Notes under the pieces: generated by a model
Database searches by the model: none
What the model was told of the DNA's origin: nothing
What the model saw: only the letters and a program-made list of their open reading frames with translations
Made by a program: the position numbers and the translations under genes
From: Mycolicibacterium malmesburyense
GTDB taxonomy: Bacteria; Actinomycetota; Actinomycetes; Mycobacteriales; Mycobacteriaceae
Direction: 5' to 3'
Length of the DNA stretch: 64,000 nucleotides
Assembly (NCBI RefSeq): GCF_001050015.1
Contig: NZ_CVTB01000011.1
Span: forward strand, 49,569 to 113,568
Shown here: one piece after another, positions 33,408 through 54,562 of the stretch
Numbering within the stretch: the first letter of the stretch is position 1
How the letters are laid out: every line of letters begins with the position of its first letter

Positions 33408-33411
33408 GGGT

Positions 33412-34543: not shown

Positions 34544-34589
34544 ACCTAAAATTTGTTCAGACAGTAGCCACGGTCATGATCACCGTCAA
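34544..34589 (-). promoter_or_regulatory. promoter and operator of the P450/AveC operon
   Basis: On the minus strand TTGACG (34584-34589) and TACTGT (34561-34566) are 17 bases apart, a good sigma-A-type promoter. The expected start near 34554 falls inside ACCTAAAATTTGTTC (34544-34558, plus-strand orientation), a copy of the island's 15-bp element. The operator thus covers the transcription start of the operon beginning at 34524. Confidence 0.65.
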
Positions 34590-35392
34590 TCGTCCGGCCG
34601 CGAGTCGACCAGGTACGCATCGATCATCTCGAGCAGGCCGCGGGTGATGGTCGCGTCGTCGGTGAGCGGGCCCGCGATGGCGGCCCTGGCGGCGTCGCGC
34701 GGGGTCAATCCCTCGGCGATCAGCCGGCCGGCGGCGATCAGTACCCGCGTCGAGGCGACCTCGCGCAGCCCCCCCGTCTCCAGCCGCCGGATCGCGTGCC
34801 CCAACCGGACGAGCTCCGCGGCGCGGTCGTGGTCGATGGCGGCCTCGCTCGCGACGATCTTCTCTTCGACATCGGCTGTCGGGAAACCGAACTCGATCGC
34901 GACCATCCGCTGCCTGGTGGAATCCTTGAGGTCCTTCAGCACGCTCTGATAACCGGGGTTGTAGGAGACGACCAGGCAGAATCCCGGTGCGGCGTCCAGC
35001 GTGACGCCCAGCCGTTCGATCGGCAGCTGCCTGCGGTGGTCGGCCAGCGGGTGCAACACCACGGTGGTGTCCTGACGAGCCTCCACGACCTCGTCGAGAT
35101 AGCAGATCGCACCCTCGCGGACCGCGCGGGTCAGCGGCCCGTCGACCCACTCGGTCTCCCCGCCGTGCAGGAGGAAGCGGCCGACCAGATCGGCGGTGGT
35201 GAGGTCGTCGTGACAGGCGACGGTGACCAGCGGCCGGTCCAGGTCGTGCGCCATCGCCTCGACGAAGCGCGTCTTCCCGCACCCCGTCGGGCCCTTCAAT
35301 GCGATCGAGAGCCCCTGGTGGTAGGCGGCCTTGAAGACCTGCTCCTCGTTCGCGACGGGCACGTAATAGGGCCGCGGCGGCTTCACCTGCAT
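34586..35392 (-). CDS. CbbQ/NirQ/NorQ-type AAA+ ATPase
   Basis: The 268-aa protein is a MoxR-class AAA+ ATPase: Walker A GPTGCGKTR near 34-42, Walker B ICYLDEVVEA near 94-103, sensor LVVSYNPGYQ, and the C-terminal CbbQ segment with TRGLLEMIDAYL. Relatives act with a VWA protein to remodel or insert metal into enzymes (rubisco with CbbO, nitric oxide reductase with NorD). The VWA partner is directly upstream. No rubisco or NO reductase is in the window, so the client is unknown. Confidence 0.92.
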   Translation of the reverse strand: MQVKPPRPYYVPVANEEQVFKAAYHQGLSIALKGPTGCGKTRFVEAMAHDLDRPLVTVACHDDLTTADLVGRFLLHGGETEWVDGPLTRAVREGAICYLDEVVEARQDTTVVLHPLADHRRQLPIERLGVTLDAAPGFCLVVSYNPGYQSVLKDLKDSTRQRMVAIEFGFPTADVEEKIVASEAAIDHDRAAELVRLGHAIRRLETGGLREVASTRVLIAAGRLIAEGLTPRDAARAAIAGPLTDDATITRGLLEMIDAYLVDSRPDD

Positions 35393-35422
35393 GGCTTCCC
35401 TTCGCTCGGCCTGGTCTAACGG

Positions 35423-35452
35423 ACCCTATCGCGGAACAGATGTTTGGTTCAA
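35423..35452 (-). promoter_or_regulatory. promoter with 15-bp operator upstream of the AAA ATPase gene
   Basis: On the minus strand TTGAAC (35447-35452) and TAGGGT (35423-35428) are 18 bases apart, and the spacer contains ACCAAACATCTGTTC (plus-strand 35434-35448). The element lies within the last codons of the VWA gene, so the AAA gene can be transcribed on its own. Confidence 0.6.
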
Positions 35453-37147
35453 GGGTCTGGCGGGTGTTGACACGCGCCGACGCAGATCCGCGGTGCGCAG
35501 CGCCGAGCGGAACAGCGGTCCGATCACGTCGGCCAACTGGGCGGGTTTCGGGATCGACGCGTGTGCGGCGCTGCCGAACACCCTGGCCAACTCCCCGGAG
35601 TCGGTGGCGGCCCCGATCGTCAGGCACAGGCAGCCGATACCCTCGCGCCTGGCCTCCCCCAGCGCCTTTCGCACGTCGGCCGCCCCGTAGACCCGTTCGT
35701 AGCCGTGGTCGTAGGCCAACCCGTCGGACAGCACCACCAGCAGGCGCCGTGACGTGCCGGCTTTCTCCGTCATCACCGCGGTGCCGTGCCGGACCGCCGC
35801 CCCCAGCCGGGAGTAGGCGCCGGCCTTGAGGCTTCCCAATCGCCGCGTGACCGTCGCGTCGAGGCGCTCGTCGAAGCGCTTGACCGGCATCAGGTTGACC
35901 GCCGCGCGGCCCTGTGACTGGAAGGCGTACAGCGCCACTCGGTCTCCGAGTTCGTGGAGGGCGATCGTGAGCGCGGCGGCGGCCGCCCGCTGCTGTTCGT
36001 GCACGGTCTGCCCGAATGTGCCCGCCTCTCCCGCCGATCCGGAGATGTCGAGCAGGACGAGCACCGCCAGGTCGCGCCGCCGACGCAGGTTGTCGAGGTA
36101 GACGGCTTCGTCCGGTGTCGAACCCGCAAGGGTCTCCACACGCGCCTCGACCGCGGCATCGACGTCGATGTCATCACCCTGGGTCTGCCTGTGGCACCGG
36201 TCGAGCCCGATGCCGAGTCGGGTCAGCGGCCGCCGCAACGCGTGAACATCGGGCCGGGCCAAGGTTTGCCCCTCCTCGATCGGAGGCTCGATCTCGAGCA
36301 CCGTGCACCAGTCCGGCCGGTAACACCGTCGTTGGAAGTCCCACTCGGGATAGGTGCGACCCTCCTTCCCGGAGGAATCGAAACCCTCGGCGTCGACCGC
36401 CCCGGCCGCGCTCGACGTCACCGCACCGGTGCCACGAAATCCCCTGCGGGAGCGATGAGTTGGTGTGTCCGCGCCCGGTGTGCCGCCGCTGGAGAGCTTA
36501 CGGACGCTCTTGGTCATGCGCTTGAGCAGCTTGCCGAGCGCACCGCCTCCGCCGACGGGACTGGAGAAGGGGTCGATCACGTCGTCGCCGTCGACATCAT
36601 CGTCGTCGTCCAATTCCGCGAGATCCCCGTTCGACCCCCGACGTGGGATGTGTCCGCCCGCCGGTTCCACCTGTGCGGCGGCTGCGCGCGTCGCCAGCAG
36701 CTTCTGCGCCTTGATCACGCCGAAGCCCGCCGGTGGATCGGCGATGTCACGGTGCTCCCCGGCCACCTTCAACGACCCGGCAGCGCAATCGGCTCGTGCC
36801 GCGAGGTCGCAGTCGAGGAGCGAGCGGACACCGGATGGCAACAGATCGTCGTTGACCGACAGCGCGCGCTGACCCTCCACCGCGAGGTAGCGCCGCGCCA
36901 GCGCCGGGCGCCTGACGAGTTTGCGCACCACGTCGGCCTCCAGACCCCCGCTGGCCAGAAGCGATGCCTGCACGGTGACCGACTCGAGCTGGCGGGGCGC
37001 GCTCGCGGACGGGTCGACGAACACCGTGACGCCGTCGGTCCACGCCGCTTCGCCCGGGGCCGCCGGCGCGACCGCCAGCGTGCGGCCGGCCAGTGCCGAG
37101 GCCAGCAGCGCCAGGCGCTTGGGATCGTCGGCGTCCTCGCTCGTCAT
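35426..37147 (-). CDS. VWA-domain protein (NorD/CbbO-like partner of the AAA ATPase)
   Basis: The 574-aa protein has a C-terminal von Willebrand A domain with the MIDAS motif DISGS and LSDGLAYDHGY. The N-terminal half holds a helical region and a charged linker (DDDDDVDGDD near 190). This layout is that of NorD/CbbO proteins, which pair with MoxR-type ATPases. ATG 37147 is chosen behind AGGAAAGG; a TTG at 37174 is in frame but falls in the promoter element. It is divergent from the SDR gene at 37229. Confidence 0.88.
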   Translation of the reverse strand: MTSEDADDPKRLALLASALAGRTLAVAPAAPGEAAWTDGVTVFVDPSASAPRQLESVTVQASLLASGGLEADVVRKLVRRPALARRYLAVEGQRALSVNDDLLPSGVRSLLDCDLAARADCAAGSLKVAGEHRDIADPPAGFGVIKAQKLLATRAAAAQVEPAGGHIPRRGSNGDLAELDDDDDVDGDDVIDPFSSPVGGGGALGKLLKRMTKSVRKLSSGGTPGADTPTHRSRRGFRGTGAVTSSAAGAVDAEGFDSSGKEGRTYPEWDFQRRCYRPDWCTVLEIEPPIEEGQTLARPDVHALRRPLTRLGIGLDRCHRQTQGDDIDVDAAVEARVETLAGSTPDEAVYLDNLRRRRDLAVLVLLDISGSAGEAGTFGQTVHEQQRAAAAALTIALHELGDRVALYAFQSQGRAAVNLMPVKRFDERLDATVTRRLGSLKAGAYSRLGAAVRHGTAVMTEKAGTSRRLLVVLSDGLAYDHGYERVYGAADVRKALGEARREGIGCLCLTIGAATDSGELARVFGSAAHASIPKPAQLADVIGPLFRSALRTADLRRRVSTPARPLNQTSVPR

Positions 37148-37166: not shown

Positions 37167-37195
37167 TTGACCAAATATCTGTTCCAACGTAAAGT
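37167..37195 (+). promoter_or_regulatory. promoter with 15-bp operator, SDR gene side
   Basis: TTGACC (37167-37172) and TAAAGT (37190-37195) are 17 bases apart, and the spacer carries ACCAAATATCTGTTC (37170-37184). The predicted start near 37202 leaves a short leader with GGAGGG before the ATG at 37229. The -10 and flanks (CGTAAAGTCC) are identical to those before the mce operon. Confidence 0.7.
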
Positions 37196-37228: not shown

Positions 37229-38158
37229 ATGATCGACTTCACCGGCCAGGTCGTCGTGGTGACGGGGGCCGGTCGCGGCCTCGGACGCGTCTATGCGCTC
37301 GAGTTGGCAAGGCGCGGAGCGGCGGTGGTCGTCAACGACCTCGGCGGCACCATGCACGGTGACGGCGAGGACGCCGCGGTCGCCGACCAGGTGGTCGCCG
37401 AGATCACCGCATCGGGTGGTACCGCGGTCGCGTCGCACGACTCGGTGGACAGCCCCCGCGGCGGTGAAGCGATCGTGCGGACCGCCGTCGACGCGTTCGG
37501 TCGGCTGGATGCGGTGATCAGCAACGCGGGCATCTTCAACTCCATCCCCTTCGACGAGCTGACACCCGACGACTGGCGCCGCATGCTGTCGGTTCATCTC
37601 GACGGTGCGTTCTACCTGTCCCAGCCCGCCTACCGGGTGATGAAGGCGCAGGGGTACGGCCGGTTCGTATTCGTCGCCTCGTCGGCGGGGATGTTCGGTC
37701 AGCATCTGGAGGCGCATTACGCCGCGGCCAAGGCGGGCATCGTCGGCCTGTCCAACGTCATCGCGCTCGAAGGCGAACCGCACGGGATCCGTGCGAACAC
37801 CGTGCTCCCGTTCGGGTTGTCGCGCATGGTCACCGAGACGCTGGGCGATCCGAAGGTCCTCGAAGACAACGGCTTCTTCACCGCGATCCGCCCCGAACTC
37901 GTTGCGCCGATCGTGGTGTACCTGGCCAGCCGGGCCTGCGAGTTCAGCCACCAGAACTTCTCCGCCTGCGCGGGACGGTTCGCCAGGGTGTTCGTCGGGC
38001 TCGGCGAGGGCTGGCTGGCGCCGCGCGACGCGGAGCCGACGGCGGAGGACGTCGCCGAACACCTCGACGAGGTGGCGGCCACCGACCCGTTCACCGTCCC
38101 GGGTTCGATCTACGACGAGGTCTTCGCGGTGACCCAACGCCTCGGCATCACCGACTGA
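37229..38158 (+). CDS. SDR family oxidoreductase (hydroxyacyl-CoA dehydrogenase type)
   Basis: The 309-aa protein has TGAGRGLGRVYALELARRGA, NDLGGTMHGDG, SNAGI and Tyr/Lys in HYAAAKAGI. The NDLGG motif and the long C-terminus (RVFVGLGEGWLAP...) match the (3R)-hydroxyacyl-CoA dehydrogenase part of peroxisomal MFE-2-like enzymes, so a CoA-bound hydroxy acid is a reasonable substrate guess. ATG 37229 is preceded by GGAGGG. It is the first plus-strand gene from the divergent promoter. Confidence 0.9.
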   Translation: MIDFTGQVVVVTGAGRGLGRVYALELARRGAAVVVNDLGGTMHGDGEDAAVADQVVAEITASGGTAVASHDSVDSPRGGEAIVRTAVDAFGRLDAVISNAGIFNSIPFDELTPDDWRRMLSVHLDGAFYLSQPAYRVMKAQGYGRFVFVASSAGMFGQHLEAHYAAAKAGIVGLSNVIALEGEPHGIRANTVLPFGLSRMVTETLGDPKVLEDNGFFTAIRPELVAPIVVYLASRACEFSHQNFSACAGRFARVFVGLGEGWLAPRDAEPTAEDVAEHLDEVAATDPFTVPGSIYDEVFAVTQRLGITD

Positions 38159-38198
38159 TCACCGAAGCACGGCACTGGTCAACGCGCCACGGGCATCG

Positions 38199-38227
38199 TT
38201 GACCAAAAATCTGTTCCCGATTATCGT
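38199..38227 (+). promoter_or_regulatory. promoter with 15-bp operator upstream of nitroreductase gene
   Basis: TTGACC (38199-38204) and TATCGT (38222-38227) are 17 bases apart, with ACCAAAAATCTGTTC at 38202-38216 in the spacer. The predicted start near 38234 lies upstream of GAGGAG at 38248-38253. Confidence 0.65.
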
Positions 38228-38258
38228 CGGCGCGAGTGATCAGCACGAGGAGCGCGCC

Positions 38259-38903
38259 ATCGACATCGACCGGCTTCTGACGACTACGCGGTCCGCGCGA
38301 AAGTCACTCGACCTCGACGTCCCGGTCGATCGCGATGTGGTCGAGGATTGCCTGCGGATCGCGATGCACGCTCCCAACGGCTCGAATCAGCAGAGTTGGC
38401 GATGGGTGGCCGTTCTCGACGAGACGCTCCGCGCACGTGTCGCCGAGCTTTACCGCGATGCCTATCTGCAGAAGGTCGGCGGCCAGCTCATCAGCGACTT
38501 GCTACCGCCCGAAACACCCGGCAAGAAGATCATGTCCTCGACAGAGTGGCTGGTCGAGAACATGGCGAAGGTCCCGGTCCTGATCATCCCGTGCTACGAA
38601 CCGTATCTCCCCCGCACCGAGGGTGAATCCTTCTATCAGGCAACGCTGTACGGCTCGATCTTCCCCGCCGTATGGAATTTCGCGCTGGCCCTCCACACGC
38701 GCGGCTACGGGACCTGCGTCACGACCTTGCACCTGACCCACGAGGCCGCGGTCCGCGAACTGCTCGGCATTCCCGAAACGTACGTACAAGGCTGCCTGCT
38801 GCCCGTGGGGCGGCTGCGGGCCGGCGTCACATTCCGTCCGGCGGAACGCCGACCGATCTCCGAAGTGGTCGCCGTGGACACCTGGGACGGACCGCCGCTG
38901 TGA
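38259..38903 (+). CDS. nitroreductase family protein (possible ATC start)
   Basis: The 214-aa protein is an FMN-dependent nitroreductase-fold enzyme: TTTRSARKSLDLDVPVDRDVVEDCLRIAMHAPNGSNQQSWRWV at the start and ALALHTRGYGTCVTTLHL plus VGRLRAG near the end. It reduces nitro groups, quinones or C=C bonds with NAD(P)H. The start is odd: the only standard in-frame start, TTG 38199, is the -35 of the promoter. ATC at 38259, five bases after GAGGAG, aligns with the usual family start M-D-x-D-R-L-L. The coding call is firm; the start is not. Confidence 0.82.
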   Translation: MDIDRLLTTTRSARKSLDLDVPVDRDVVEDCLRIAMHAPNGSNQQSWRWVAVLDETLRARVAELYRDAYLQKVGGQLISDLLPPETPGKKIMSSTEWLVENMAKVPVLIIPCYEPYLPRTEGESFYQATLYGSIFPAVWNFALALHTRGYGTCVTTLHLTHEAAVRELLGIPETYVQGCLLPVGRLRAGVTFRPAERRPISEVVAVDTWDGPPL

Positions 38904-39430
38904 ATGCCAGGCTGCAGGAACTCTGTGACCGCGCGGACATACTCGCGTGCATACAGCGTTACGCGAGGGGCATGGACCGGCGCGACCGCGAATTGGTGCG
39001 CTCGGCCTACCACGACGATGCGGTCGACGAGCACATCGGTTTCGTGGGCCCCGTCGACGAATTCATCGACTGGGCGTTCGCATACCACGAGACGCAGACC
39101 CGCTACCAGCACTACCTGCTGAACCACACCGCGGACATCGCGGGCGATGAGGCGCACGCGGAAACCTACTACCTGTTCGTCGGCACCGACCGCGCCCCGG
39201 CGAACCATCTGACCATCAACGGGGGCCGCTACATCGACCGGCTCGAGCGTAGGGACGACCGCTGGGCCATCGCCGCACGGGTGTGTGTCGTCGAATGGCA
39301 CACGGAGGGCACGACGCTGATCACCGACGAGACCATGGGGTTTCTCGCCGACATCCTCACCGTCGCGCACGATCACAGCGACATCTCCTACGAGCGCCCC
39401 CTGAAGATCGTCCGCTCGCCGACCCTCTGA
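38900..39430 (+). CDS. SnoaL-like (NTF2-fold) protein
   Basis: The 176-aa protein belongs to the SnoaL_4 group of the NTF2 fold: ILACIQRYARGMDRRDRELVRSAYHDDAV near 13-41 and HYLLNHTADIAGDEAHAETYYLFV. Relatives are cyclases, isomerases or dehydratases of ring compounds, or non-enzymatic. GTG 38900 overlaps the nitroreductase stop as GTGA, so they are coupled. An ATG four bases later is out of frame. Whether it is catalytic cannot be judged here. Confidence 0.85.
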   Translation: MNARLQELCDRADILACIQRYARGMDRRDRELVRSAYHDDAVDEHIGFVGPVDEFIDWAFAYHETQTRYQHYLLNHTADIAGDEAHAETYYLFVGTDRAPANHLTINGGRYIDRLERRDDRWAIAARVCVVEWHTEGTTLITDETMGFLADILTVAHDHSDISYERPLKIVRSPTL

Positions 39431-39492: not shown

Positions 39493-39528
39493 ACCAAACT
39501 TTGGGTCGGTTCGACCAAACAGGTGGAC
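39493..39528. promoter_or_regulatory. two degenerate operator copies upstream of the tandem TetR gene
   Basis: ACCAAACTTTGGGTC (39493-39507) and ACCAAACAGGTGGAC (39514-39528) each match the first half of the island's 15-bp element and part of the second. The ACCAAAC cores are exactly 21 bases apart, two helical turns. A -10 candidate TAGCGT (39485-39490) just upstream would put the start within the first copy, as expected for autoregulation. Confidence 0.5.
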
Positions 39529-39551: not shown

Positions 39552-40874
39552 GTGGCGCGCCGCGTGACGCCGAAGGCGGACCTCGCGAAGCGCGCTGGCC
39601 ATTCATACGACGACGGCACCCGGCGGACCGAAATCCTGCACACGGCGGCGTCGTTGATCGCCACGTCCGGGCTGCGGACATCGCTGCAGGAGATCGCCGA
39701 CGCCGCGGGCATCCTGCCGGGCAGCCTCTACCACCACTTCGAATCCAAGGAAGCGATCCTCGTCGAGTTGCTGCGCCGCTATCACGAGGATCTCGACCGC
39801 ATCGCCGGGCAGGCCCTCGACCGTCTCGACGATCCGGCGCCGCTGTCGGCGTTCGACCGGATCGTGGAACTGGGCGCGGCGATCGCCGAATGCGCGGTGA
39901 CGCACAGTGCCGCATTGCAGATGACGTTCTACGAAGCCCCGACGTCGAACCCGGAACTCGCCGCGCTGGCTCAACAACGCCCGGCGAAGATCCTCGAAGC
40001 GATGGTGCAGACGCTGCGTGCCGCGCGGTGGAGCGGCTATCTGCGCCCGGACGTCGATCTTCCGATCCTGGCCGACCGGATCGTTCAGTCGATGCGCCAG
40101 GTCGGCCTCGACGTCATCCGACACAGTGCGGGCGCCGACAAGGTCGCGGAAACGCTGTGCCGGATCCTGCTGGAGGGCCTGGCCACCGTCCCCCCGAGCG
40201 ACGCCGAACTCGATCGCTCCGCAGCGTTCATCGCCGCCGACGACGCGGTCAAATCGTGGATCGAGGATGAGCAGAACGCCCGCGACGACAAGGTCGCGCA
40301 CGTACGCGCGGTCGCGCGTGCCGAGTTCGGTCGAAAAGGCTACGAGGTCACCACGATCCGCGACATCGCCGCGGCCGCGGGCCTGGGCACCGGGACGGTG
40401 TACCGCTTGATCGGATCGAAGGAGGAGCTGCTGGCCTCGATCATGCAGTCGTTCGGCGAGAAGGTCGCCGAGGTGGGATGGACCAGTGTGTTGCGGTCCG
40501 ACTCGACGGCCGTCGAGAAGCTGGACGCGCTCAGTTGGATCCACACCAACGCCCTCGCCCACTTCGGCGACGAGTTCCGCATTCAGCTGGCGTGGATGCG
40601 CCAGTCCCCGCCCGACACCCCGAACATCGCGTGGCTGTTCACCAAACGCGTCCGACAGATGAAATCACTGCTGACCGCGGGCATTCGCGCCGGCGAGATC
40701 TCGATCGACAGCCCGTCCAACGAGATACTGGCCCGCGTCGTCATCGGCGTCTCGTGGATCCCGGAGAACCTCCTACACGATCTCGGGCCCCGCGCATCGC
40801 AGATCCACGTGCGCGACACCTTGCTTCGGGGGGTCACCACGCGCTCGGCCGCCGAGGACGCTAGCCGACGGTGA
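39552..40874 (+). CDS. tandem TetR-family regulator (two TetR domains in one chain)
   Basis: The 440-aa protein has two complete TetR helix-turn-helix units: TSLQEIADAAGILPGSLYHHFESKEAIL in the N-terminal half (about 40-68) and TTIRDIAAAAGLGTGTVYRLIGSKEELL near 270-300, each followed by a helical domain. Single-chain double TetR proteins are rare; Mce3R of M. tuberculosis (Rv1963c), repressor of mce3 and lipid genes, is the known example. An intramolecular pair of unlike reading heads suits an asymmetric operator. GTG 39552 is tentative (GGAGGT is only three bases away); GTG 39564 is an alternative. It overlaps the convergent P450 gene by 14 bases. Confidence 0.92.
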   Translation: MARRVTPKADLAKRAGHSYDDGTRRTEILHTAASLIATSGLRTSLQEIADAAGILPGSLYHHFESKEAILVELLRRYHEDLDRIAGQALDRLDDPAPLSAFDRIVELGAAIAECAVTHSAALQMTFYEAPTSNPELAALAQQRPAKILEAMVQTLRAARWSGYLRPDVDLPILADRIVQSMRQVGLDVIRHSAGADKVAETLCRILLEGLATVPPSDAELDRSAAFIAADDAVKSWIEDEQNARDDKVAHVRAVARAEFGRKGYEVTTIRDIAAAAGLGTGTVYRLIGSKEELLASIMQSFGEKVAEVGWTSVLRSDSTAVEKLDALSWIHTNALAHFGDEFRIQLAWMRQSPPDTPNIAWLFTKRVRQMKSLLTAGIRAGEISIDSPSNEILARVVIGVSWIPENLLHDLGPRASQIHVRDTLLRGVTTRSAAEDASRR

Positions 40875-42057
40875 TCGGCAGCTTGCCCCACCCCCGGACG
40901 CTCGAGGTGTGGGCCATGGCGGCATCGGTGTAGTCGACATCCCACTCGGGCCAGCGCCGCAGCATCTCCTCCAGCGCGACCCGTCCCTGCATCCGCGCCA
41001 GCGACGAGCCCAGGCAGAAGTGCAGTCCCTGCCCGAACGACAGGTGTGACCCGCCGCGATGGATGTTGAAGCTCTCCCCGTCCGGGTAACGCCGCTCGTC
41101 GCGGTTGGCAGAACCGTTGAGCAACAACATCACCGAACCCTCGGCGATCGTCGTGCCGTAGCACTCGGTCTCGCGGGCGACGTACCTCCCCTGCACCGGC
41201 GACGGCGACTGGTAGCGCAACACCTCCTCGATCGCCTTCGGTATCAGCGAGAAGTCGTCGACCAGTTCACGTCGCTGCTCGGGATGCTCGGCGAGCATCT
41301 GGGCGATGAATCCGATCAGCCTGGTGGTCGTCTCGTTGCCGGCGCCGGCGATCATGCTCGTGTAGGTCAGCACCTCGATGCGCGACAGCGGCCGAAGCTG
41401 ACCGTCGTCTTCGACCTCGGCGTTGAGCAGCTGCGTCATCAGATCGTCCGACGGGTGTTCGGCCCGCCATTCGATGTAGTCGGCGAACAGCTGATAGGCG
41501 TTCTCGAACGTTGCGGCCGACACCGCCTGAAAGCTCCCCTCTTTCAGGCCGATCGACGCATCGGTGTTGTCGCGGATCTGCTGCTGACCCTGCTCGGGGA
41601 TGCCCAGCAGATAGCCGATCGTGCGCATCGGGATCAGCGCCCCGAAATCGCCGATCACGTCGAACCGCGTGGCGCCGGCCAGCGAGTCGAGCGCGCGAAC
41701 GCAGAACTGCCGTACCAGGCCTTCGATGGCCTCCATCCGGCGCGGGGTGAAGACCTTGGAGAGCACCCGTCGGTGGATGTCGTGCAGTGGCGGATCCTCG
41801 AACAGGATGACCCCCGGGGGCACGTCGACGCCGCTCATGATGACGTCCATCGTGGTGCCCTTGCCCGATCGGTACGTGTCCCAGTCGTGGAGGCCCTGGG
41901 AAACATCGTCGTAGCGGCTCAACGCGTAGAAGTTGTACTTCTCGTTGTAGTACAGCGGCGCCTCGTCGCGCATCCGCTTCCAGATCGGGTACGGGTCGTC
42001 GTCGATGTCGAAATCGAACGGGTCGTAGTACAGGTCGACGGTGTTGGTGTCGGTCAT
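40861..42057 (-). CDS. cytochrome P450 (third)
   Basis: The 398-aa protein is a soluble P450: I-helix IAGAGNETTTRL, ExxR in EEVLRYQS, heme loop SFGQGLHFCLGSSLAR with Cys348. It ends the operon that begins at 45107 and overlaps the upstream LLM gene as ATGA. Association with F420-type oxidoreductases and DHDPR-like dehydrogenases suggests a ring-modifying pathway, but the substrate is not visible. The 3' end overlaps the convergent tandem TetR gene. Confidence 0.94.
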   Translation of the reverse strand: MTDTNTVDLYYDPFDFDIDDDPYPIWKRMRDEAPLYYNEKYNFYALSRYDDVSQGLHDWDTYRSGKGTTMDVIMSGVDVPPGVILFEDPPLHDIHRRVLSKVFTPRRMEAIEGLVRQFCVRALDSLAGATRFDVIGDFGALIPMRTIGYLLGIPEQGQQQIRDNTDASIGLKEGSFQAVSAATFENAYQLFADYIEWRAEHPSDDLMTQLLNAEVEDDGQLRPLSRIEVLTYTSMIAGAGNETTTRLIGFIAQMLAEHPEQRRELVDDFSLIPKAIEEVLRYQSPSPVQGRYVARETECYGTTIAEGSVMLLLNGSANRDERRYPDGESFNIHRGGSHLSFGQGLHFCLGSSLARMQGRVALEEMLRRWPEWDVDYTDAAMAHTSSVRGWGKLPITVG

Positions 42058-43043: not shown

Positions 43044-43049
43044 CGTCGA

Positions 43050-44123: not shown

Positions 44124-44138
44124 GAATCCTCCCGTCGC

Positions 44139-45150: not shown

Positions 45151-45165
45151 ACCTAATTTTTGTTC
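45151..45165. promoter_or_regulatory. 15-bp operator between divergent LLM and DHDPR-like genes
   Basis: ACCTAATTTTTGTTC fits the island element. On the minus strand TAGAGT (plus-strand 45145-45150) next to it could be a -10 for the LLM operon, with the element in the -35/-10 spacer. The plus-strand gene starts 85 bases away. One site may serve both directions. Confidence 0.55.
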
Positions 45166-46362: not shown

Positions 46363-46822
46363 ACGGCATCTCGATATCGAGCACCTTGTTGAAACCGCAG
46401 GCGCCACTGGGACCTTCGGTCTTGTCCCACCCCTGGTACTTGTTGGGGTCGGGCGGATAACCCAGCCAGAACACCCACGACTGCTTGCCGGGGTAGGCCG
46501 TACCGTCGATGCACGGCTCCCAGTCCGGGACCGTCCTGGTGACCTTCCACCGGCCGCTCATGTACACCGCCTCCGCACTCCAGCCCTGATCGCTCTCGAC
46601 CCGACCGGTGCAGTCCTGATACGTCGTACATGTGGAGGTGATGGTCCACGTCTGCGTGACGCTCGCCTCGTCGTGACGGGAGTCGTTGGTCGTGGCCCAT
46701 CGGCCGTCGGAGAACGCGGTGAAGACTCCGTTGATCGCGACCTCGTTCTGCGCCTGCGCGTGCGGCGCGAGGTGGATCGCCGCGAGGAGCGTCGAGGCGG
46801 CGATCGTCAAAGCCCGGATCAT
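46340..46822 (-). CDS. secreted protein, last gene of the mce operon
   Basis: The 160-aa product has a signal peptide (1-24, ending AQAQ) and a mature domain with four cysteines (CTTYQDC, EPCIDG, GACGFNK) and many Trp/Tyr residues. ATG 46822 overlaps the mceF stop as ATGA. Secreted proteins of this type often end mce operons, but I do not recognise a named family. The open frame extending far upstream is the mceF gene read out of phase. Confidence 0.8.
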   Translation of the reverse strand: MIRALTIAASTLLAAIHLAPHAQAQNEVAINGVFTAFSDGRWATTNDSRHDEASVTQTWTITSTCTTYQDCTGRVESDQGWSAEAVYMSGRWKVTRTVPDWEPCIDGTAYPGKQSWVFWLGYPPDPNKYQGWDKTEGPSGACGFNKVLDIEMPFTLTRVG

Positions 46823-48528
46823 TGTGCCCCTCCCCCGTAGACCAACTGCTGCCACGACTTCGGGCTCTGCACGAGATCGGTCTGGCGGCCGACGTTTCCG
46901 TCCGGTGTCGCATACTGTCCGGTCTGCGGATCGTAGTGCGCGATGGCGACGGACGGTCCGTCCGCCGGACCAGTGGTGGCGGAACTCGGCGTCGCGGGCA
47001 CCGCCCCGGGCGGGGGTGGCGAACCGTCCGGCGGCGGGTCTTGCGGCGGTGGCCCGTGCGGGGTAGCCGCCTGCGGTGCGGGTGCGACGGTGCTCTGCTG
47101 ATCCACCGATTGCGACACCAGGGGTGGGATCGCGTTCGGCGGCAGCGAAGGCATCCTTGCACCGGGCGCCAGCGGCGGTGGGGGGATCGGTGGCAACGGC
47201 CCACGCGGGACGGCACCGGCCGGGAGCGGCGTGCCCTCGAGCGGGGCGAAGAGGTTCTCGTCGGCCCGGACCCGGCTGTCGGGCGGTACGCCCTGTGCGA
47301 TGAGGTTCGGATCGATCGGATACGCGCCCAGCGAATGTTGGCGCATCGCGAGCGGTTCGTAGGGTTTGTCGCTGTAGCACTGCTCGACGGTGGGCGCGCG
47401 TTTGCCGGGGACCCCCATGCACGGCGTGTTGCGCGCACCCCGCACGACGATCGGCGAGTCCTGGGGCAGTTTGCAGTAGATCCCGTCCGGCGTGTCGATC
47501 GTGGTCTGGTCGTCCGGGCTGCGCCACTCCGAGGGCGGCAGGAAGCCGACGGTGCACGGGTTGGGGTCGGCCATCTGAATGCGGAAGTCGCCCAGGGCGA
47601 TACCGGTGGGATTGTTGTGGGGAGCCGAGGACTGGACGTTGGCCACGAACGGCGGTAACAGCACGAGCACCTGCTCCAGCGAGGGGCGATAGGTCACTGC
47701 CACCTGACCGATGGTGGTCATGTTGGCCAGCAGCACCGGCAGAGTCGGCCTGATCTGCTCGAACAGTCCGGAGACCTGGCTCGCTGCGGCAGGACCGTCG
47801 TCCAGCAGGGTGCGGATCTGCGGGTCGTCGGCCACGACCTGATCGGTGATACCGGCGAGGCTTCGCGCCCACACCCGCAATGCGTCGGCCGAGCGGGCCT
47901 GCGAATCCAGCAGCGGCACCGAATCTTCGGCCAGCGTCGCGGAACGGGAGGCATCCCTGTTCAGAGCTTCGGAGAGGGTGGCCGACGAATCCACCAGCGA
48001 ACCCATGTCGAAACCGGCCCCGCTGAATGCCCTGTACGACTCGTCGATCAATTCCGTCAAGCGGCCCTTCGGGATGCTCGCGATCAGGGTGTTCACCTGC
48101 TCCAGCATCGGGCTCACCGGCTGCGGAATCGTGGTGTCGGCCATGGCGATCACCGACCCGTCTTCCAGATATGGCGGCGAGTCAGTGCGCGGAAGCAGCT
48201 CGACGTACTGCTCGCCAACGGCCGACACACTGCGCACTTCGGCCTGCAGATCGGCCGGTATCTTCGGCGAGGTGTCGAGGCGCAGCGTCGCGGTGGCCCG
48301 GGTGCGCGACACATCCATTTCGGTGACCTTGCCCACCTGCACCCCGCGGTAGGTGACGTTGGCAAACCGGTAGAGCCCGCCAGACGCGGGCAATTCCAGT
48401 GTGACGGTGATCTTCCCGATGCCCAGCAGCGTGGGCACCTGCATATAGGCGAACACCATCGCGACCACGCCGATGATCGATGCGATCGAGAAGATCACGA
48501 GCTGGATACGCACCATCCGCGGCAGCAT
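46819..48528 (-). CDS. mceF: Mce family protein, MceF
   Basis: The 569-aa protein has one N-terminal membrane helix (about 8-28), the MlaD/MCE domain (LPASGGLYRFANVTYRGVQVGKVTEMD, about 40-115), the helical MCE-associated region, and a long Pro-rich C-terminal tail (about 430-540). Mce A-F subunits build a hexameric tunnel that carries lipids across the periplasm-like space. ATG 48528 shares one base with the mceE stop (TGATG); eight further codons upstream are unlikely. Confidence 0.92.
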   Translation of the reverse strand: MLPRMVRIQLVIFSIASIIGVVAMVFAYMQVPTLLGIGKITVTLELPASGGLYRFANVTYRGVQVGKVTEMDVSRTRATATLRLDTSPKIPADLQAEVRSVSAVGEQYVELLPRTDSPPYLEDGSVIAMADTTIPQPVSPMLEQVNTLIASIPKGRLTELIDESYRAFSGAGFDMGSLVDSSATLSEALNRDASRSATLAEDSVPLLDSQARSADALRVWARSLAGITDQVVADDPQIRTLLDDGPAAASQVSGLFEQIRPTLPVLLANMTTIGQVAVTYRPSLEQVLVLLPPFVANVQSSAPHNNPTGIALGDFRIQMADPNPCTVGFLPPSEWRSPDDQTTIDTPDGIYCKLPQDSPIVVRGARNTPCMGVPGKRAPTVEQCYSDKPYEPLAMRQHSLGAYPIDPNLIAQGVPPDSRVRADENLFAPLEGTPLPAGAVPRGPLPPIPPPPLAPGARMPSLPPNAIPPLVSQSVDQQSTVAPAPQAATPHGPPPQDPPPDGSPPPPGAVPATPSSATTGPADGPSVAIAHYDPQTGQYATPDGNVGRQTDLVQSPKSWQQLVYGGGAQ

Positions 48529-49688
48529 CAGCCACCACCGCCCGGTTCCCACGGCGCGGGTGCAGCATTCGGAATCGGGCCGAAAGGTGGCGAGGTGCCA
48601 ACGCCCAGCGGGAATTTGGTGTAGTACGCATCGTATCCGGGGTCACCCGGCGCGGGAACCAACGATGCCCGGTTCTGGCCGAGCGCGGTGCCGAGCAGCA
48701 ATCCACGCTTGAGCCGCGCGTTCGTCCAGTCCACCGTGACGAAGAGGTTCACGTAATCGCCGCGCACCCCGCGGTCGATCAGATTCTGGCTCAACGGGAA
48801 CGTCGGAAGGGCGCCCAGCGCCGTGCCGATCTCTGCGCCGACGTCGGAGAGCGCGCGCAGCGTCGGCTCCAAGTTCTGCAGATTCGTCACGAGGTCGGCT
48901 TGAGTGTCGTTGATCAAGCCGGAAACCGTCTCGCTGAACTGCGCCAACCGATTCAGCGCGGTGGTGAAGTTGGGTCGTTCCCGGATCAGGACGTCGAGTG
49001 CGGGCGGGATCTTGTCGAGCGCGCGGGTGAGCACGCGCTGTTCATCACCCAACCGTTGCGAGAACCTGTTCAACTCGTCGATGGTCGCAATGATGTTCTC
49101 GCGCTGTTGATACAGGGTCCCGACGAAGGTGTCCAGTCGGGCGATCAGGTCGCGCACCGTGCCCTGGCGTCCCGACAGCGCGGTGTTGAAATTCGCGATG
49201 ATGTCGCCGATCTGACCCAGCCCCCCGCCGTTGACCACCGCCGCCAGCGACGACAGCGTCTGTTCCGTCGACGGGTAGGTGGACGTCTTGTCAAGTCCGA
49301 TGGTGGCGCCCGGGCGAAGCCTGCCGCTCGGCTTCTCATCCGGCGGCGGGTCCAGCGCGACGTGCATGGAGCCCAGAAGGCTGGTCTGGCCGACGGTGGC
49401 GACGGCGTTGGCCGGCACCGCGACGTCGGGCTTGACCGAGATCTCGAGGTCGATGTGCCAGCCGTGCAACGTCATCCTGCCCACGCTGCCCACCACGACG
49501 TCGTCGATCATCACGGGCGAATTCGATTCCAGCGTACCGACGTTCGCGAGCTCGACGTGGTAGACGTCGGCGTCCGACCCCCGACCCACCGCCCCCGGCA
49601 ACGGCAGTGAGTTCACCCCTTTGAACGAACACCCGGTGAGGGTCAACAGCATGGTCAGCCCCGCGGCCACCGCACGACTGCCGATCAT
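48528..49688 (-). CDS. mceE: Mce family lipoprotein, MceE
   Basis: The 386-aa protein begins with a lipoprotein signal whose lipobox is LTGC (Cys19), the hallmark of MceE (Lpr) subunits. The MCE domain follows (DVYHVELANVGTLESNSPVMIDDVVVGSVGRM) and then the long helical region (LARLDTFVGTLYQQRENIIATIDELNRFSQ). ATG 49688 overlaps the mceD stop as ATGA; the longer in-frame opening lies within mceD. It is the lipid-anchored subunit of the importer. Confidence 0.93.
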   Translation of the reverse strand: MIGSRAVAAGLTMLLTLTGCSFKGVNSLPLPGAVGRGSDADVYHVELANVGTLESNSPVMIDDVVVGSVGRMTLHGWHIDLEISVKPDVAVPANAVATVGQTSLLGSMHVALDPPPDEKPSGRLRPGATIGLDKTSTYPSTEQTLSSLAAVVNGGGLGQIGDIIANFNTALSGRQGTVRDLIARLDTFVGTLYQQRENIIATIDELNRFSQRLGDEQRVLTRALDKIPPALDVLIRERPNFTTALNRLAQFSETVSGLINDTQADLVTNLQNLEPTLRALSDVGAEIGTALGALPTFPLSQNLIDRGVRGDYVNLFVTVDWTNARLKRGLLLGTALGQNRASLVPAPGDPGYDAYYTKFPLGVGTSPPFGPIPNAAPAPWEPGGGG

Positions 49689-51118
49689 GACGGTCCTCCG
49701 CCGTGTGGCATCGGGGGTGCCGCGGCCGGCGATTTCGGCGGCGCCGGGGGTGCCTGCGGGTTGGGCTGCTCCGCGGGCAGCAGCATGTCCTGCAGGGCCG
49801 GCGGACCGGGTGAGGGGGGTGCGGCGAGCGGTGCGGGGGGGATGCCCGGCGGTGGCGGGGGCGCCCCCCATCCCGGTGGCGGCGGTATGTCACCGATCCC
49901 GGTATAGGCCGACACCGCGGGCGGCGGCTCGGGCTGATCGTCGGGCGGTCCATCCGCACCGGGCATCAGCTCCGGTTCCGAATACCGCAGCATGTACGGC
50001 GGCGGGTTCGCCGTCAGGAACAGGCTGAACGGGAACGGCACGTTGTTGATGCTCGCCGTGCGCAGGCCGGGCCCGAGGTACTGCGAGCACAGCTTGCCGG
50101 TGGTTGGCGAAGTGACGTTTTGCAGCGCCCCGATCATGCCGCAGAAGGCCCACACCGGATTCGACAGGTTGTTGAGCACGAACACGCCGCTGGCAGCCCC
50201 GGTGCGCGGATCGAACATGTTGACCGCGTTGGCGATCGAGTGCGGCGCGATGTGCAGGACGTTCTCCAACGCCATGCGGTTGTCGACGAGGTTCTGCGTC
50301 ACATTGGCCAGCCGCTGGATCTGTTCGGCGGTCTGGTCGCGCGTGCCCCGGATGAATCGGGTGGTCTCGCCGACGACGTCGGACAGGTTCTTCAACGCGG
50401 CGTCGAGATCGGATCGACTTTCGTCCACGACGCTGGTCAACGTCGCGAACCTGTCCTGGAACTGCACGATCTGCTCGTTGCTGTCCCGCAACGCGGTGAC
50501 GAACGCCTGCAGGTGGTTGATGGTGTCGACGATGTTGCCGCTCCCGTCGGCGAGTATGCGACCGACGCCGGAGAGCTGCGCGAGCGTTTGACGCAATTTG
50601 TCGCCGTTGCCGTCGAGCGCGTTGGCCGCACTGTCGATGAACCGCCCGACCGAACCGGTCGACATCCCCTCGGCGGGACCGAGGTCCGTCGCCAGGCGCA
50701 TCAGCTGCTCTTTGACCTCGTTCCACTCGACCGGAACGGCCGTGCGGTTCAACGGGATAACGGCGCCGTCGACCATCGCGGGCCCGGATTCGTAAGCGGG
50801 TGTCAGCTGAACATACCGCGCCGAGACCAGATTCTGGGCGACGATCACCGCCTTCGCGTCGGCGGGCACCTTGATACCGTGGTCGACTGCCAGCCTCATC
50901 TCCGCCTGGGTGCCGACCGGTTTGATCGATTCGATGGAGCCCACCTTGACGCCCGCGATACGGACCTCGTCACCGGGATAGATCGCGGTGGCCGTGGTGA
51001 AGTGGGCGGTGATCGTCGTGGGTCGGAACGCGGTCTGCCGGATCAGGACCACGACCCCGCCGAAGAGCGCTACGGCCAGCGCGGCCGCGAGCGCGCGCTT
51101 CACCCAGATGTTGTTCAT
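49685..51118 (-). CDS. mceD: Mce family protein, MceD
   Basis: The 477-aa protein has an N-terminal helix (8-28), an MCE domain (TAHFTTATAIYPGDEVRIAGVKVGSIESIKPVG), the helical region, and a very Pro-rich C-terminus (about 390-477, runs of PPPP and PAPP), typical of MceD. ATG 51118 overlaps the mceC stop as ATGA. Part of the six-subunit lipid tunnel. Confidence 0.93.
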   Translation of the reverse strand: MNNIWVKRALAAALAVALFGGVVVLIRQTAFRPTTITAHFTTATAIYPGDEVRIAGVKVGSIESIKPVGTQAEMRLAVDHGIKVPADAKAVIVAQNLVSARYVQLTPAYESGPAMVDGAVIPLNRTAVPVEWNEVKEQLMRLATDLGPAEGMSTGSVGRFIDSAANALDGNGDKLRQTLAQLSGVGRILADGSGNIVDTINHLQAFVTALRDSNEQIVQFQDRFATLTSVVDESRSDLDAALKNLSDVVGETTRFIRGTRDQTAEQIQRLANVTQNLVDNRMALENVLHIAPHSIANAVNMFDPRTGAASGVFVLNNLSNPVWAFCGMIGALQNVTSPTTGKLCSQYLGPGLRTASINNVPFPFSLFLTANPPPYMLRYSEPELMPGADGPPDDQPEPPPAVSAYTGIGDIPPPPGWGAPPPPPGIPPAPLAAPPSPGPPALQDMLLPAEQPNPQAPPAPPKSPAAAPPMPHGGGPS

Positions 51119-52215
51119 CGCCCCGGCCCCCACTGCTCGTGAGGCATCGGTATTCCGTTGTAGGGGAACGGAAGCTCGGCGCGCGGTCCGGCGTTGTCGG
51201 GTGGCTGACCGGCGTTGACCCCGCGCCGGAAACCGAACGCGTAATCGAAGAACGGCTGGAATATCTGCGAGAAGAAGATATTGGGGATGAAGGCCTGGTA
51301 GTACGGGCCGTTCCCGATCCCCTCGCCCAATGTGGTCTGGAACTTCGCCAGCCCGGGAAGCGCCTTGGCGATGTTGTCGCGGTTACGCTCCAAGATCTCG
51401 GTGACGCCGTTGAGCTTCTCCAACGTGGGGGCGAGTTCTTTCTCGTTGTCAGCGATGAGGCCGGACAGCTGTTGAGACAACGCCGAGGTGTGCGCCAGGA
51501 GTTCGACGATGGCGTAACGACGAGCCGACAACACCGACACCAGGTCGTTGGCGTTGAGGATCAGCGTGTTCACCTGCTGACTGCGGTCCGACAGGATCTC
51601 GGTGACATCGGCGCCGTTCTCCAGGAGGTCCCCCAGCGTTTCGTCACGGTCGTTGATCGCCCTGGACAGCCGGGTCAGCCCGTCGAACGCCGGGCCCAGC
51701 TGCGGCGCCACCTGGTCCAGGGTCGCCGCCAACGTGTCCAACGATTGGTTCAACGACACGGTGTCGGTGCCCGCAGTGTTGCTCGTCAGCTCGCTGACCG
51801 CCTCGGTCAGCGAGTACGGGGATGCGGTGCGCGACAACGGAATCATATCCATCGGGCGCAGCGACCCCTCTCCCTTGGACTCCAGGGTCACGACCCGCTC
51901 GCCCAGCAGGGTTCCGGTCCGGATGTGTGCGGTGGTGTCCGATCCGAGCGACACCGAGCCGTCGATCACCACCGTCACCAGTGCGTTGCGTCCTTGGAGC
52001 GCAACGCTGGAGACGGTGCCCACCTTGATCCCCGAGATTGTCACGTCGTTGCCCGCTGCCAGCCCGCCTGCGTCGGCGAACTGCGCCTGATACCGCACCG
52101 CGGTCGCCCATGACACCAGCCGTTCCGGAGCGAGCCCGACCGCGATGACAAGGACGATCAGCACCACGCCGAGGATGCCGGCGCGGATGAGTTGTCTGCC
52201 ACGGTATTTCAGCAT
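51115..52215 (-). CDS. mceC: Mce family protein, MceC
   Basis: The 366-aa protein has one N-terminal helix (about 12-32) and an MCE domain (YQAQFADAGGLAAGNDVTISGIKVGTVSSVAL), then the helical region NTLILNANDLVSVLSARRYAIVELLAHTSAL. ATG 52215 shares one base with the mceB stop; an upstream in-frame ATG (52254) inside mceB is less likely. Confidence 0.93.
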   Translation of the reverse strand: MLKYRGRQLIRAGILGVVLIVLVIAVGLAPERLVSWATAVRYQAQFADAGGLAAGNDVTISGIKVGTVSSVALQGRNALVTVVIDGSVSLGSDTTAHIRTGTLLGERVVTLESKGEGSLRPMDMIPLSRTASPYSLTEAVSELTSNTAGTDTVSLNQSLDTLAATLDQVAPQLGPAFDGLTRLSRAINDRDETLGDLLENGADVTEILSDRSQQVNTLILNANDLVSVLSARRYAIVELLAHTSALSQQLSGLIADNEKELAPTLEKLNGVTEILERNRDNIAKALPGLAKFQTTLGEGIGNGPYYQAFIPNIFFSQIFQPFFDYAFGFRRGVNAGQPPDNAGPRAELPFPYNGIPMPHEQWGPGR

Positions 52216-53240
52216 CAGGGCTCGGTACACCTCCCGTTTTCCTGTTTGAGCCATGGGAAGACGGCGGTGCGGCCCTGCAGGTCGGTCACCCGCCACTTGA
52301 GTTCGCAGATGTAGTAGTTGAAGAAGCTGCCGTAAGACCCGGTGCGGACCAGTTTGCGATAGTTCTCGGGTGCTTTCTGCAGGCCCGTGTCGATCCGGTC
52401 CTTCTGGAAGTCGAGGTTGGGCGCCAACCGGGCGAGCTCATCGACGGTGCCGGCCAGCGGTGCGCGCGCATCGCTGAGAAGATCGGCCACCGACGCCGAT
52501 CCGTTGTTCAGCGATTCGATCGCGGTGCCGATCGGGTCGCGTTCGGCCGCCAGCTCGGTGACGAGCTTCTCCAGGCGGTCGATCGTGCCCGAGAACTTGT
52601 CGCCCTCGCGATTGAGGGTGGTAAGCAGGGTGCGTAGGTTGTCGATGAGCGCCTGGATCGTCTGGTTGTGCTCGGCAAGCGCCGTGGTGAATCCGGAGGT
52701 GTTGTTCAGCAGCGACTGCAAGGTGCCGCCCTGCCCCTGGAAGATCTGGATCAGCGACGCTGAGAGCGCGTTCACGTCTTCCGGATTCAATCCCCGGATA
52801 ACGGGTTTGAGGCCGCCGAGCAGCAGATCCAGGTCGAGCGCGCCCTGGGTCCGCTCCAGCGGGATCTCAGAACCGGCCGACATCGGCGCCCCGTCCGGAC
52901 CCTCGATCAGTTCCAGGTACCGGTCGCCGACCAGGTTCAGGTACCGCACCGCCGCCCGGGTGCCCGTGGTCATGCGCACATTCGGGTCGGCGTCGAAGCT
53001 GACCAGCACCGTCTTGTCCGAGCGAAGCTTGACGCTGTTGACCGTGCCGACCCGCATCCCGGCCACCCGCACGGACTGTCCGGTCTTCAGCCGGGAAGCG
53101 TCGGCGAACACCGCCGAATAGTCCTTCGTGCTCCCGGTCTGGTACTGGCCGAAGATGAAGAACAGCGATGCGGTCAGCAACGCCATCACGAACGCGAAGA
53201 TCCCGAATTTGACCAGGGTCGGCCGCAACGAGCGCCTCAT
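52215..53240 (-). CDS. mceB: Mce family protein, MceB
   Basis: The 341-aa protein has one N-terminal helix (about 9-30), an MCE domain (YSAVFADASRLKTGQSVRVAGMRVGTVNSVKL) and the MceB-type C-terminus with FNYYICELKWRVTDLQGR. ATG 53240 overlaps the mceA stop as ATGA. Confidence 0.94.
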   Translation of the reverse strand: MRRSLRPTLVKFGIFAFVMALLTASLFFIFGQYQTGSTKDYSAVFADASRLKTGQSVRVAGMRVGTVNSVKLRSDKTVLVSFDADPNVRMTTGTRAAVRYLNLVGDRYLELIEGPDGAPMSAGSEIPLERTQGALDLDLLLGGLKPVIRGLNPEDVNALSASLIQIFQGQGGTLQSLLNNTSGFTTALAEHNQTIQALIDNLRTLLTTLNREGDKFSGTIDRLEKLVTELAAERDPIGTAIESLNNGSASVADLLSDARAPLAGTVDELARLAPNLDFQKDRIDTGLQKAPENYRKLVRTGSYGSFFNYYICELKWRVTDLQGRTAVFPWLKQENGRCTEP

Positions 53241-54430
53241 CCGGGCATTCCGATCTGCGCCGTATTACGGGGCGGCCCAGCGGTTTCGGTGTCGGGGAAC
53301 ATGATCTGCTTGATGATGTCGGCGTTGAGGATGATACCGGGGTAGGTGCGTCGCCAGGGATTGGTTCCGGTGTCGGCCACGACATACGGTGCGGCGGTTT
53401 CGAACGGCAGCTTCGGCAGTCCGGTGCACTGCGGACCGCCCTCGGCGCCGGCCTTGGGCAGATCCAGTGGATAGCGGTACCGCTCCTGGGCCCATAGGAA
53501 GCCGGCCAGCACCTCGACGCCCGGCGCTTTCAGCGGTGGGAAGTGCGACGACTCGACAATGCCGGCCAGCCCACACCACAACGCCTGGTTGTACTCGTTG
53601 GTCAGCGCCGTGGTCGGGACCAGCAGCCGCACGACGTCCGTCAGCGACCGACGGTTCTGACCGATCACCTCGTTGCCGACGTCGGCCAGCCCGATCACGC
53701 TGACGAGCGCCGCGTCGAGATCGTCCTGTTTGTCGACGATGGATTCGCTGACGGTGGCCGCGTTGTCGGCGATCGAGACGAAATCCCCTGAGGCATCGGC
53801 GTATGCGCGCAGCACGCCCGGGGCGAGTTCGAGATCGCGACTGAGCGCAGGCAGGCTTGGCTCCAGCGTCGCGAGGTAGGAATCCAAGTCGGAGAGCATT
53901 TGGCCGAACTTCTGCCCGCGACCCGATACGGCCTGCGCGATCGCACCGAGCGTGGCGTTGAGCTTCGCCGGCTCGATCGTGGACAGCACCGAGGTCAGTT
54001 GTTCGAAGACGGTGTTCACCTCGACCATCACGTGCTGGGCCTCGATCACTTGGCCGGCGCGCAGCGATTGTGGCGAAGGATCGTCGGGGAAGACGAATTG
54101 CACTTGCTTGGCGCCGAAGACGGTCGGCGACGCGATGTCGACCAGCGCGTTCGCCGGAATCGCGTCGAGCCGTGAGGGATCCATCGCGAGATGCAGGGCC
54201 GCCTCACCGCTCGGGAGCGCTTCGATCGATGCGACCCGGCCGACCTGGACACCGCGGACTTGAACCTTCGCATCGGGATTCATGACCAAGCCGGCGCGCT
54301 GCGAGATGACCGTCACCGGAACGCTATCGGAGAAGTCGCCGCGAAACAGGCTCGCCGCCAACGCGAACACCGCGATGACCGCAACGATCGACACCAAACC
54401 GACGAGAGGACGCAGCACCCAGAGCTTCAT
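53237..54430 (-). CDS. mceA: Mce family protein, MceA
   Basis: The 397-aa protein has one N-terminal helix (about 7-28), an MCE domain (VTVISQRAGLVMNPDAKVQVRGVQVGRVASIEAL) and the MceA cholesterol-uptake-porter-like C-terminal part with NEYNQALWCGLAGIVESSHFPPLKAPGVEV. It heads the six-gene operon. No yrbEA/yrbEB permease genes precede it, unlike typical mce operons. ATG 54430 has a weak GAGGG site. Confidence 0.94.
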   Translation of the reverse strand: MKLWVLRPLVGLVSIVAVIAVFALAASLFRGDFSDSVPVTVISQRAGLVMNPDAKVQVRGVQVGRVASIEALPSGEAALHLAMDPSRLDAIPANALVDIASPTVFGAKQVQFVFPDDPSPQSLRAGQVIEAQHVMVEVNTVFEQLTSVLSTIEPAKLNATLGAIAQAVSGRGQKFGQMLSDLDSYLATLEPSLPALSRDLELAPGVLRAYADASGDFVSIADNAATVSESIVDKQDDLDAALVSVIGLADVGNEVIGQNRRSLTDVVRLLVPTTALTNEYNQALWCGLAGIVESSHFPPLKAPGVEVLAGFLWAQERYRYPLDLPKAGAEGGPQCTGLPKLPFETAAPYVVADTGTNPWRRTYPGIILNADIIKQIMFPDTETAGPPRNTAQIGMPG

Positions 54431-54532
54431 CGGTCGCCCTCACAATCACACCCAAGGCGTAACGCACCGCACCCCGTTGGTCGGTATGACAAGCCCGTTT
54501 TCCCCCCAGCGTGCGATCGAGGACGGTGCAGG

Positions 54533-54562
54533 ACTTTACGCCGGAACATATCTTTGGGTCAA
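54533..54562 (-). promoter_or_regulatory. promoter of the mce operon with operator variant
   Basis: On the minus strand TTGACC (plus-strand 54557-54562) and TAAAGT (54533-54538) are 18 bases apart. The spacer reads ACCCAAAGATATGTTC, the island element with one extra C, and the -10 context CGTAAAGTCC is identical to the promoter at 37167. The leader to mceA would be about 95 bases. Confidence 0.65.

Follow-up and report, generated by a model that had tools for sequence, protein, structure and literature searches.

The stretch of DNA analysed here (the window) comprises 64,000 nucleotides of Mycolicibacterium malmesburyense (contig NZ_CVTB01000011.1, positions 49,569 to 113,568, forward strand). 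It carries an island of P450, SDR, LLM and mce genes and, within it, a plus-strand gene (39552..40874) for a tandem TetR protein, tTetR, which holds two TetR domains in one chain. A 15-bp element recurs at promoters dispersed over the island, and tTetR is its putative reader.

Candidate operators in the island

Two placements of the element were distinguished. In class I the site overlaps the -35 hexamer and fills the -35/-10 spacer, and in class II it starts right after the -10 hexamer and covers the start point. Five sites match exactly, all of them listed in a first-pass annotation made from the sequence. The site at 34544..34558 (plus strand, ACCTAAAATTTGTTC) is class II and lies directly 3′ of the -10 hexamer of the minus-strand PBP6-AveC-SDR-ALDH-P450 operon (33412-34524 downward). 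It directly follows the promoter TTGACG-17-TACTGT, over the inferred transcription start, as the annotation had proposed. At 35434..35448 (minus strand, ACCAAACATCTGTTC) a class I site occupies the promoter of an AAA (CbbQ-type) gene at 34586-35392 (TTGAAC 35447-35452, 18 bp, TAGGGT 35423-35428). The site at 37170..37184 (plus strand, ACCAAATATCTGTTC) is common to two divergent promoters, being class I for the plus-strand SDR gene 37229-38158 (TTGACC 37167-37172, 17 bp, TAAAGT 37190-37195) and class II for the minus-strand VWA gene 35426-37147 (TTGACG 37209-37214, 17 bp, TACGTT 37186-37191); the -10 hexamers of the pair overlap. A further class I site, 38202..38216 (plus strand, ACCAAAAATCTGTTC), lies in the promoter of a nitroreductase gene (about 38259-38903) and a SnoaL-like gene (TTGACC 38199-38204, 17 bp, TATCGT 38222-38227), and 45151..45165 (plus strand, ACCTAATTTTTGTTC) falls between an LLM gene (44139-45107, minus strand) and a DapB-like gene (45250-46362, plus strand).

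The sixth annotated site was recovered on the minus strand at 54544..54559 as ACCCAAAGATATGTTC, a class I variant one base longer, in the mceA promoter (TTGACC 54557-54562, 18 bp, TAAAGT 54533-54538). The TTGACC hexamers reported at 37167, 38199 and 54557 are thus present with TANNNT-type -10 hexamers and spacers of 17, 17 and 18 bp, and the reported common -10 context, CGTAAAGTCC, is found at exactly two positions of the window, 37188 (plus) and 54531 (minus). The six annotated sites stand, and their total rises to at least eight. Missed were a variant at 39493..39507 (plus strand, ACCAAACTTTGGGTC), 59 bp 5′ of the tTetR start and suggestive of autoregulation, and a second, upstream mce site at 54764..54778 (minus strand, GCCTAATCATTGTTC), 334 bp from mceA, supported by the matrix scan and by relatives.

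Chance as the origin of the sites is ruled out by shuffle controls and by reversed-pattern controls in 80 loci and 12 genomes. The window holds seven matches with at most two mismatches, whereas 100 dinucleotide shuffles gave 0.19 on average. A matrix was built from 179 of 246 distinct sites, after removal of those more than 80% alike. These sites were chosen within one mismatch of the annotated pattern, so the core and part of the dyad are given by construction, and the flanks and the -10 peak are not dictated by the search. The matrix reads TTRACCWAATATYTGTTCMRM, and a TANNNT peak emerges unprompted at positions 21-26. With reverse readings of the same sites left aside, the five exact sites rank first in the window (27.6 to 30.3 bits), followed by 39164 (14.1), 39493 (12.1), 54764 (11.0) and 54544 (9.4 bits); the next unrelated position scores 5.0 bits. 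The two-mismatch match at 39164 lies within the SnoaL coding sequence and may be fortuitous. An extended matrix scores 54544 at 15.2, 39493 at 12.0 and 54764 at 11.7 bits; across 40 Markov samples of the window it gave on average 0.05 values above 12 bits per sample, and one sample reached 17.1. Because random samples reach comparable scores, single weak sites rest on their conservation and not on score alone.

Conservation of the element and co-occurrence with tTetR

Relatives were collected by a contig scan with an alignment of 14 tTetR proteins, and the best 80 of 286, from mycobacteria and four Nocardia, were analysed. In these 80 loci (1.59 Mb) exact sites number 159, sites with one mismatch 92 and sites with two 111, compared with 0, 0 and 8 for the reversed pattern. 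A site with at most one mismatch occurs in 75 of the 80 loci and is absent from L039, L042, L044, L060 and L064. Gene positions were taken from tblastn matches (E 1e-25) to 27 window queries, and by this measure none of the 159 exact sites falls inside a homolog of these genes; five one-mismatch sites fall in SnoaL. Of 43 exact sites in the 12 whole genomes, 42 lie within 6 kb of tTetR, while 19 of 40 one-mismatch sites are near it and 21 elsewhere, and the reversed control pattern gives four matches. The sole exact site away from tTetR is G011:C1:757803.

This association extends across genera. Among 297 genomes of the mycobacterial group, the exact motif is found in 184, tTetR (E 1e-60) in 186 and both in 181, for which Fisher's P of 1.7e-70 overstates the association because the genomes are related and the counts are not independent. 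In the genus of the Nocardia genome represented by locus L028 (148 genomes), the motif is found in 19, tTetR in 21 and both in 19. Given common ancestry, more weight falls on cases in which gene and site are kept together in another setting. Eight loci (L097-L104) hold a second copy of tTetR amid rearranged genes, and sites stand beside tTetR in all of them. In L109-L113 tTetR is only 44-46% identical; of the island genes, four of these five loci retain no more than a distant ALDH and the fifth retains none, and the motif is kept. Since the site tracks the gene for this two-headed regulator across species, the element is very probably its docking site.

Two observations on these relatives stand apart. 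In the L109-L113 subfamily the site, ACCAAATATTTGTTC, is more symmetric; it lies roughly 60-90 bp beyond the point where the tTetR match ends and seems to precede the following operon. In addition, L038, L041, L065, L107 and L108 each hold two nearby tTetR genes (64-65% and 68-72% identical to that of the window), with intervening sites in L107 and L108.

The tTetR promoter itself provides further evidence. With gene starts extrapolated, 75 of 83 tTetR copies in the 80 loci have a site of at least 5 bits between -130 and +20, compared with 8 of 198 control gene starts, a set that includes operon-internal starts. We also considered whether this self-site is always more symmetric than the target sites, which failed: matched dyad pairs are mostly five of eight in self-sites (54 of 75) and four to six in the general set. 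Only in the ACC/ACC form of the window's clade is pairing of position 2 with 13 more frequent (37 of 75 self-sites versus 28 of 179 sites).

Symmetry of the element and its polarity at promoters

The first-pass annotation had described the element as lacking dyad symmetry, and the matrix contradicts this. The element is a 16-bp pseudo-palindrome, RACCWAAT|ATYTGTTC, in which an ACC-type half and an AAC-type half flank one centre. The matrix forms a degenerate inverted repeat and has a cosine of 0.697 to its own reverse complement, with a column-permutation P of 0.002 for that centre and of only 0.083 when the best centre is chosen. A strict absence of symmetry is therefore rejected. Pairing position p with 15-p, positions 1-14, 3-12 and 6-9 match in 173, 179 and 173 of the 179 sites, which is largely dictated by the search pattern, and positions 2-13 (C and T) are unpaired in 151. 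These counts indicate that the halves are related yet consistently unlike.

The placement of the element relative to the promoter hexamers is also conserved. At SDR orthologs, TTGAC begins three bases before the first A of the site in all 52 distinct sites, and TANNNT lies at +20, with a 17-bp spacer, in 49 of the 52. At AAA orthologs, TTGA stands one base further upstream (51 of 56), with TANNNT at one position in 38 of 56 and one base closer in the other 18. The sites at VWA orthologs, largely those of SDR read in the opposite direction, have one base between TANNNT and the site in 60 of 65, with TTGAC a further 17 bp upstream in 44 and a further 18 bp in 16. At PBP6 orthologs, TANNNT lies at -8 in 49 of 56.

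The orientation of the site relative to the gene is nearly fixed. Counted as same or opposite, it is 56/0 for AAA, 51/0 for SDR and 5/0 for nitroreductase, and 1/57 for PBP6, 0/64 for VWA and 1/18 for LLM44139 (19 sites). Homologs of DapB43050 (8 same, 3 opposite) and tTetR (4 and 1) are exceptions, and the site counts for the nitroreductase and DapB-like 45251 genes are lower bounds owing to off-frame tblastn queries. It is possible, though less likely than not, that the operator is coded for polarity, with its unlike halves fixing the lie of a single-chain repressor whose direction is locked to promoter geometry. The ACC half would then sit at -35 in class I and the AAC half at -10 in class II, and one bound molecule would close two overlapping back-to-back promoters. 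In favour of such a polarity code, orientation is also kept at genes without a divergent partner on the site (AAA, 56 of 56 same; PBP6, 57 of 58 opposite). A symmetric dimer is unable to encode such polarity.

tTetR and known TetR regulators

PF00440 matches tTetR in two stretches (E 9.4e-27), and the predicted model aligns to many TetR chains, so that helix-turn-helix (HTH) TetR_N domains and the TetR fold both place it in the TetR family. The closest solved sequences to its first TetR domain are of the KstR2 type (E 1e-17 and 5e-16). The single-chain model superposes on DNA-bound Mce3R (Rv1963c, Mycobacterium tuberculosis, PDB 9b7y) over both domains, at 17% identity in the structural alignment; tTetR is therefore predicted to be a double-TetR protein of the Mce3R type, with two TetR domains in the Mce3R arrangement on one chain. 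The likeness lies in this arrangement, whereas in sequence phmmer gives 41 bits to Mce3R, confined to the HTH regions, and 62-68 bits to KstR2 and RHA5900.

The layout of the regulon also appears Mce3R-like, with candidate operators at both the mce promoter (16 of 16 relatives) and the regulator's own promoter. The operators themselves differ. Mce3R sites, according to PMC11667970, are 25 bp long and without a palindrome, and two lie 53 bp apart at the mce promoter. The tTetR element is a pseudo-palindrome of 16 bp at no fewer than eight promoters spread over the island, and its two mce sites are about 220 bp apart. Orthology of tTetR and Mce3R is thus rejected, as KstR2 and RHA5900 score higher and both operator and site spacing differ.

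KstR2 (Rv3557c; RHA5900 is the closest chain) is a single-domain protein of about 200 residues that matches only residues 22-212 of tTetR, and its operator is palindromic. Classical TetR repressors share with tTetR the TetR_N domains and a two-fold-like operator in promoters, but are homodimers on symmetric sites, whereas tTetR has two unlike heads in one chain and unlike half-sites.

The mce promoter and the island genes

The minus-strand mce operon (46340..54430), under the 54544 and 54764 sites, comprises genes for six MlaD/Mce proteins (46819-54430) and a frame at 46340 without a Pfam match. The mce promoter was compared in 16 hand-picked relatives, all with tTetR and 15 of them close ones. 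All 16 have a site at the mceA promoter. In 14 it is the longer form, of CCCAAA type (two other bases in L093), and in L095 and L096 it is a 15-bp form that has one mismatch and occupies the corresponding position, 107 bp from mceA. These forms make the mce site a member of the operator family. The second site, above 8.5 bits and 291-345 bp before mceA, is present in 11 of the 16 and absent from five. The operon begins with mceA (window 46340-55040), and the mce set lacks adjacent permease genes. No YrbE (MlaE) match was found near the tTetR island in G002, G113 and G238, despite 14 to 36 MlaE matches per genome.

Four further groups of genes, assigned by Pfam, complete the island. A presumed minus-strand operon under the 34544 site (23931..34524) encodes PBP6 (a periplasmic-binding-type protein), AveC-like, SDR, ALDH, P450, SDR, P450, SDR, the 24914 gene product and a second AveC-like protein; its gaps are -32 to 23 bp, except for 194 bp before the last gene. 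The AAA (CbbQ_C) and VWA genes (34586..37147, minus strand) and the SDR, nitroreductase and SnoaL-like genes (37229..39430, plus strand) follow. A putative LLM, DapB-like, LLM and P450 operon (40861..45107, minus strand; gaps of -4, 6 and 15 bp) lies under the 45151 site. The island (window about 16700-54600) is flanked on one side by RNase HII, signal peptidase and tRNA m1G methyltransferase genes and on the other by genes of Mg-chelatase, siderophore-interacting and phage-integrase type, which we take to be a conserved mycobacterial stretch. Among the stretches fetched, the closest relative DNA is from Mycobacterium sp. 1164985.4 (90% over 13.7 kb).

At the expected start of the nitroreductase frame (38259-38903) none of the codons ATG, GTG and TTG is found. 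In the window, L004, L005 and L007 this place is taken by ATC, preceded by a GGAG-type sequence, and in L002 and L006 by ATG. A natural ATC start codon is possible.

Mce import together with oxidation by P450s, SDRs, ALDH and LLM enzymes would point to a hydrophobic growth substrate, and this compound, or one of its products, is the probable inducer. For the P450 at 28651, 160 solved P450 sequences match at E 1e-40 or better, steroid and macrolide hydroxylases among them, so that no substrate can be named.

Discussion

Our analysis indicates that the element is probably the operator of tTetR, which would repress the dispersed promoters of the island by occlusion. The first-pass annotation had proposed one regulon read by the 39552-40874 product, and phylogenetic footprinting, co-occurrence in two genera, self-promoter sites and a predicted Mce3R-like fold support this well. 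Each unlike half would presumably be contacted by a different HTH head, the two unlike heads belonging to a single polypeptide, as in Mce3R. Bound tTetR would then occlude both class I and class II promoters, and in the VWA/SDR gap one site would serve both overlapping divergent promoters. The regulon would comprise the tTetR gene itself, the P450/ALDH/SDR/AveC operon, the AAA/VWA pair, the SDR-nitroreductase genes, the LLM/P450 operon and the mce operon. Its role may be the import and oxidation of a hydrophobic compound, with the genes kept off until a signal arrives, likely the compound itself or its breakdown product.

Several observations weigh against this model. Taken alone, the 54544 mce site has a modest score, and the 21 distant one-mismatch sites may be chance or further targets. 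Eight discordant mycobacterial genomes were re-examined at one mismatch and E 1e-20. G017, G100 and G157 have the motif without a detected tTetR, likely from incomplete assembly; both G017 (3.8 Mb) and G100 (3.2 Mb) are small genomes, and in G157 the exact matches are on contigs numbered 589 and 654. Conversely, tTetR is present without an exact site in G194, G207 and G240, in G152, where one-mismatch sites lie 2.6 kb from it, and in G272, where only residues 197-432 were detected, as well as in G365 and G394 of the Nocardia genus. In addition, a self-site is missing from 8 of 83 tTetR copies. The inflated Fisher value, the operon-internal starts among the controls, the best-centre dyad value and the mixed polarity at DapB43050 homologs count on the same side.

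The mycobacterial genomes with only the motif, together with G194, G207 and G240, could mean that another regulator encoded elsewhere reads the sites and that tTetR is a mere passenger of the island. This is quite unlikely given the self-promoter sites, the co-occurrence in two genera and the distant tTetRs that keep the motif in another gene setting, and no further transcription-regulator domain was found among 58 window proteins, a subset of the frames, scanned with Pfam. That the element is instead a conserved promoter sequence (-35, spacer and -10) might be argued from class I, where it overlaps -35 and shares the -10 context. The same 15 bp, however, lie downstream of -10 and in reverse orientation in class II, and the most conserved columns are in the spacer and not the hexamers, although the core was fixed by the search pattern; a pure promoter element is rejected on class II geometry and has scarcely any probability left.

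Other alternatives retain tTetR as the reader and change how it acts. TetR-type activators are known, and the two classes place the site differently relative to RNA polymerase, so tTetR could activate or act both ways instead of occluding. We regard this as unlikely, because spacer and start positions are both repressor positions and because Mce3R represses mce3 and its own gene, as stated in PMC2277422. Somewhat less unlikely is binding by two tTetR copies, or by a homodimer via like domains, in which case the unlike halves would not map to the heads of one chain. The more alike halves (ACC/ACC) of the window-clade self-sites fit such binding, and Mce3R also forms a homodimer (PMC11667970), but the single-chain tTetR model superposes on DNA-bound Mce3R over both domains and the polarity of the unlike halves is nearly fixed.

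Occlusion by single-chain tTetR remains the preferred explanation. No account of this motif or this tTetR was found in the open-licence literature, which is not proof of absence. Before Mce3R, no duplicated-TetR structure was known, according to PMC11667970. tTetR would work like Mce3R and is most aptly described as a second kind of double-TetR regulator, one that has an operator code of its own. It would be a second, sequence-distant double TetR with more than a hundred conserved operator copies, from which the code of unlike heads on unlike half-sites could be read by mutation at once. In addition, a regulator present in 186 of 297 sampled mycobacterial genomes may now be linked to a regulon, to an mce importer and to a probable class of inducer.

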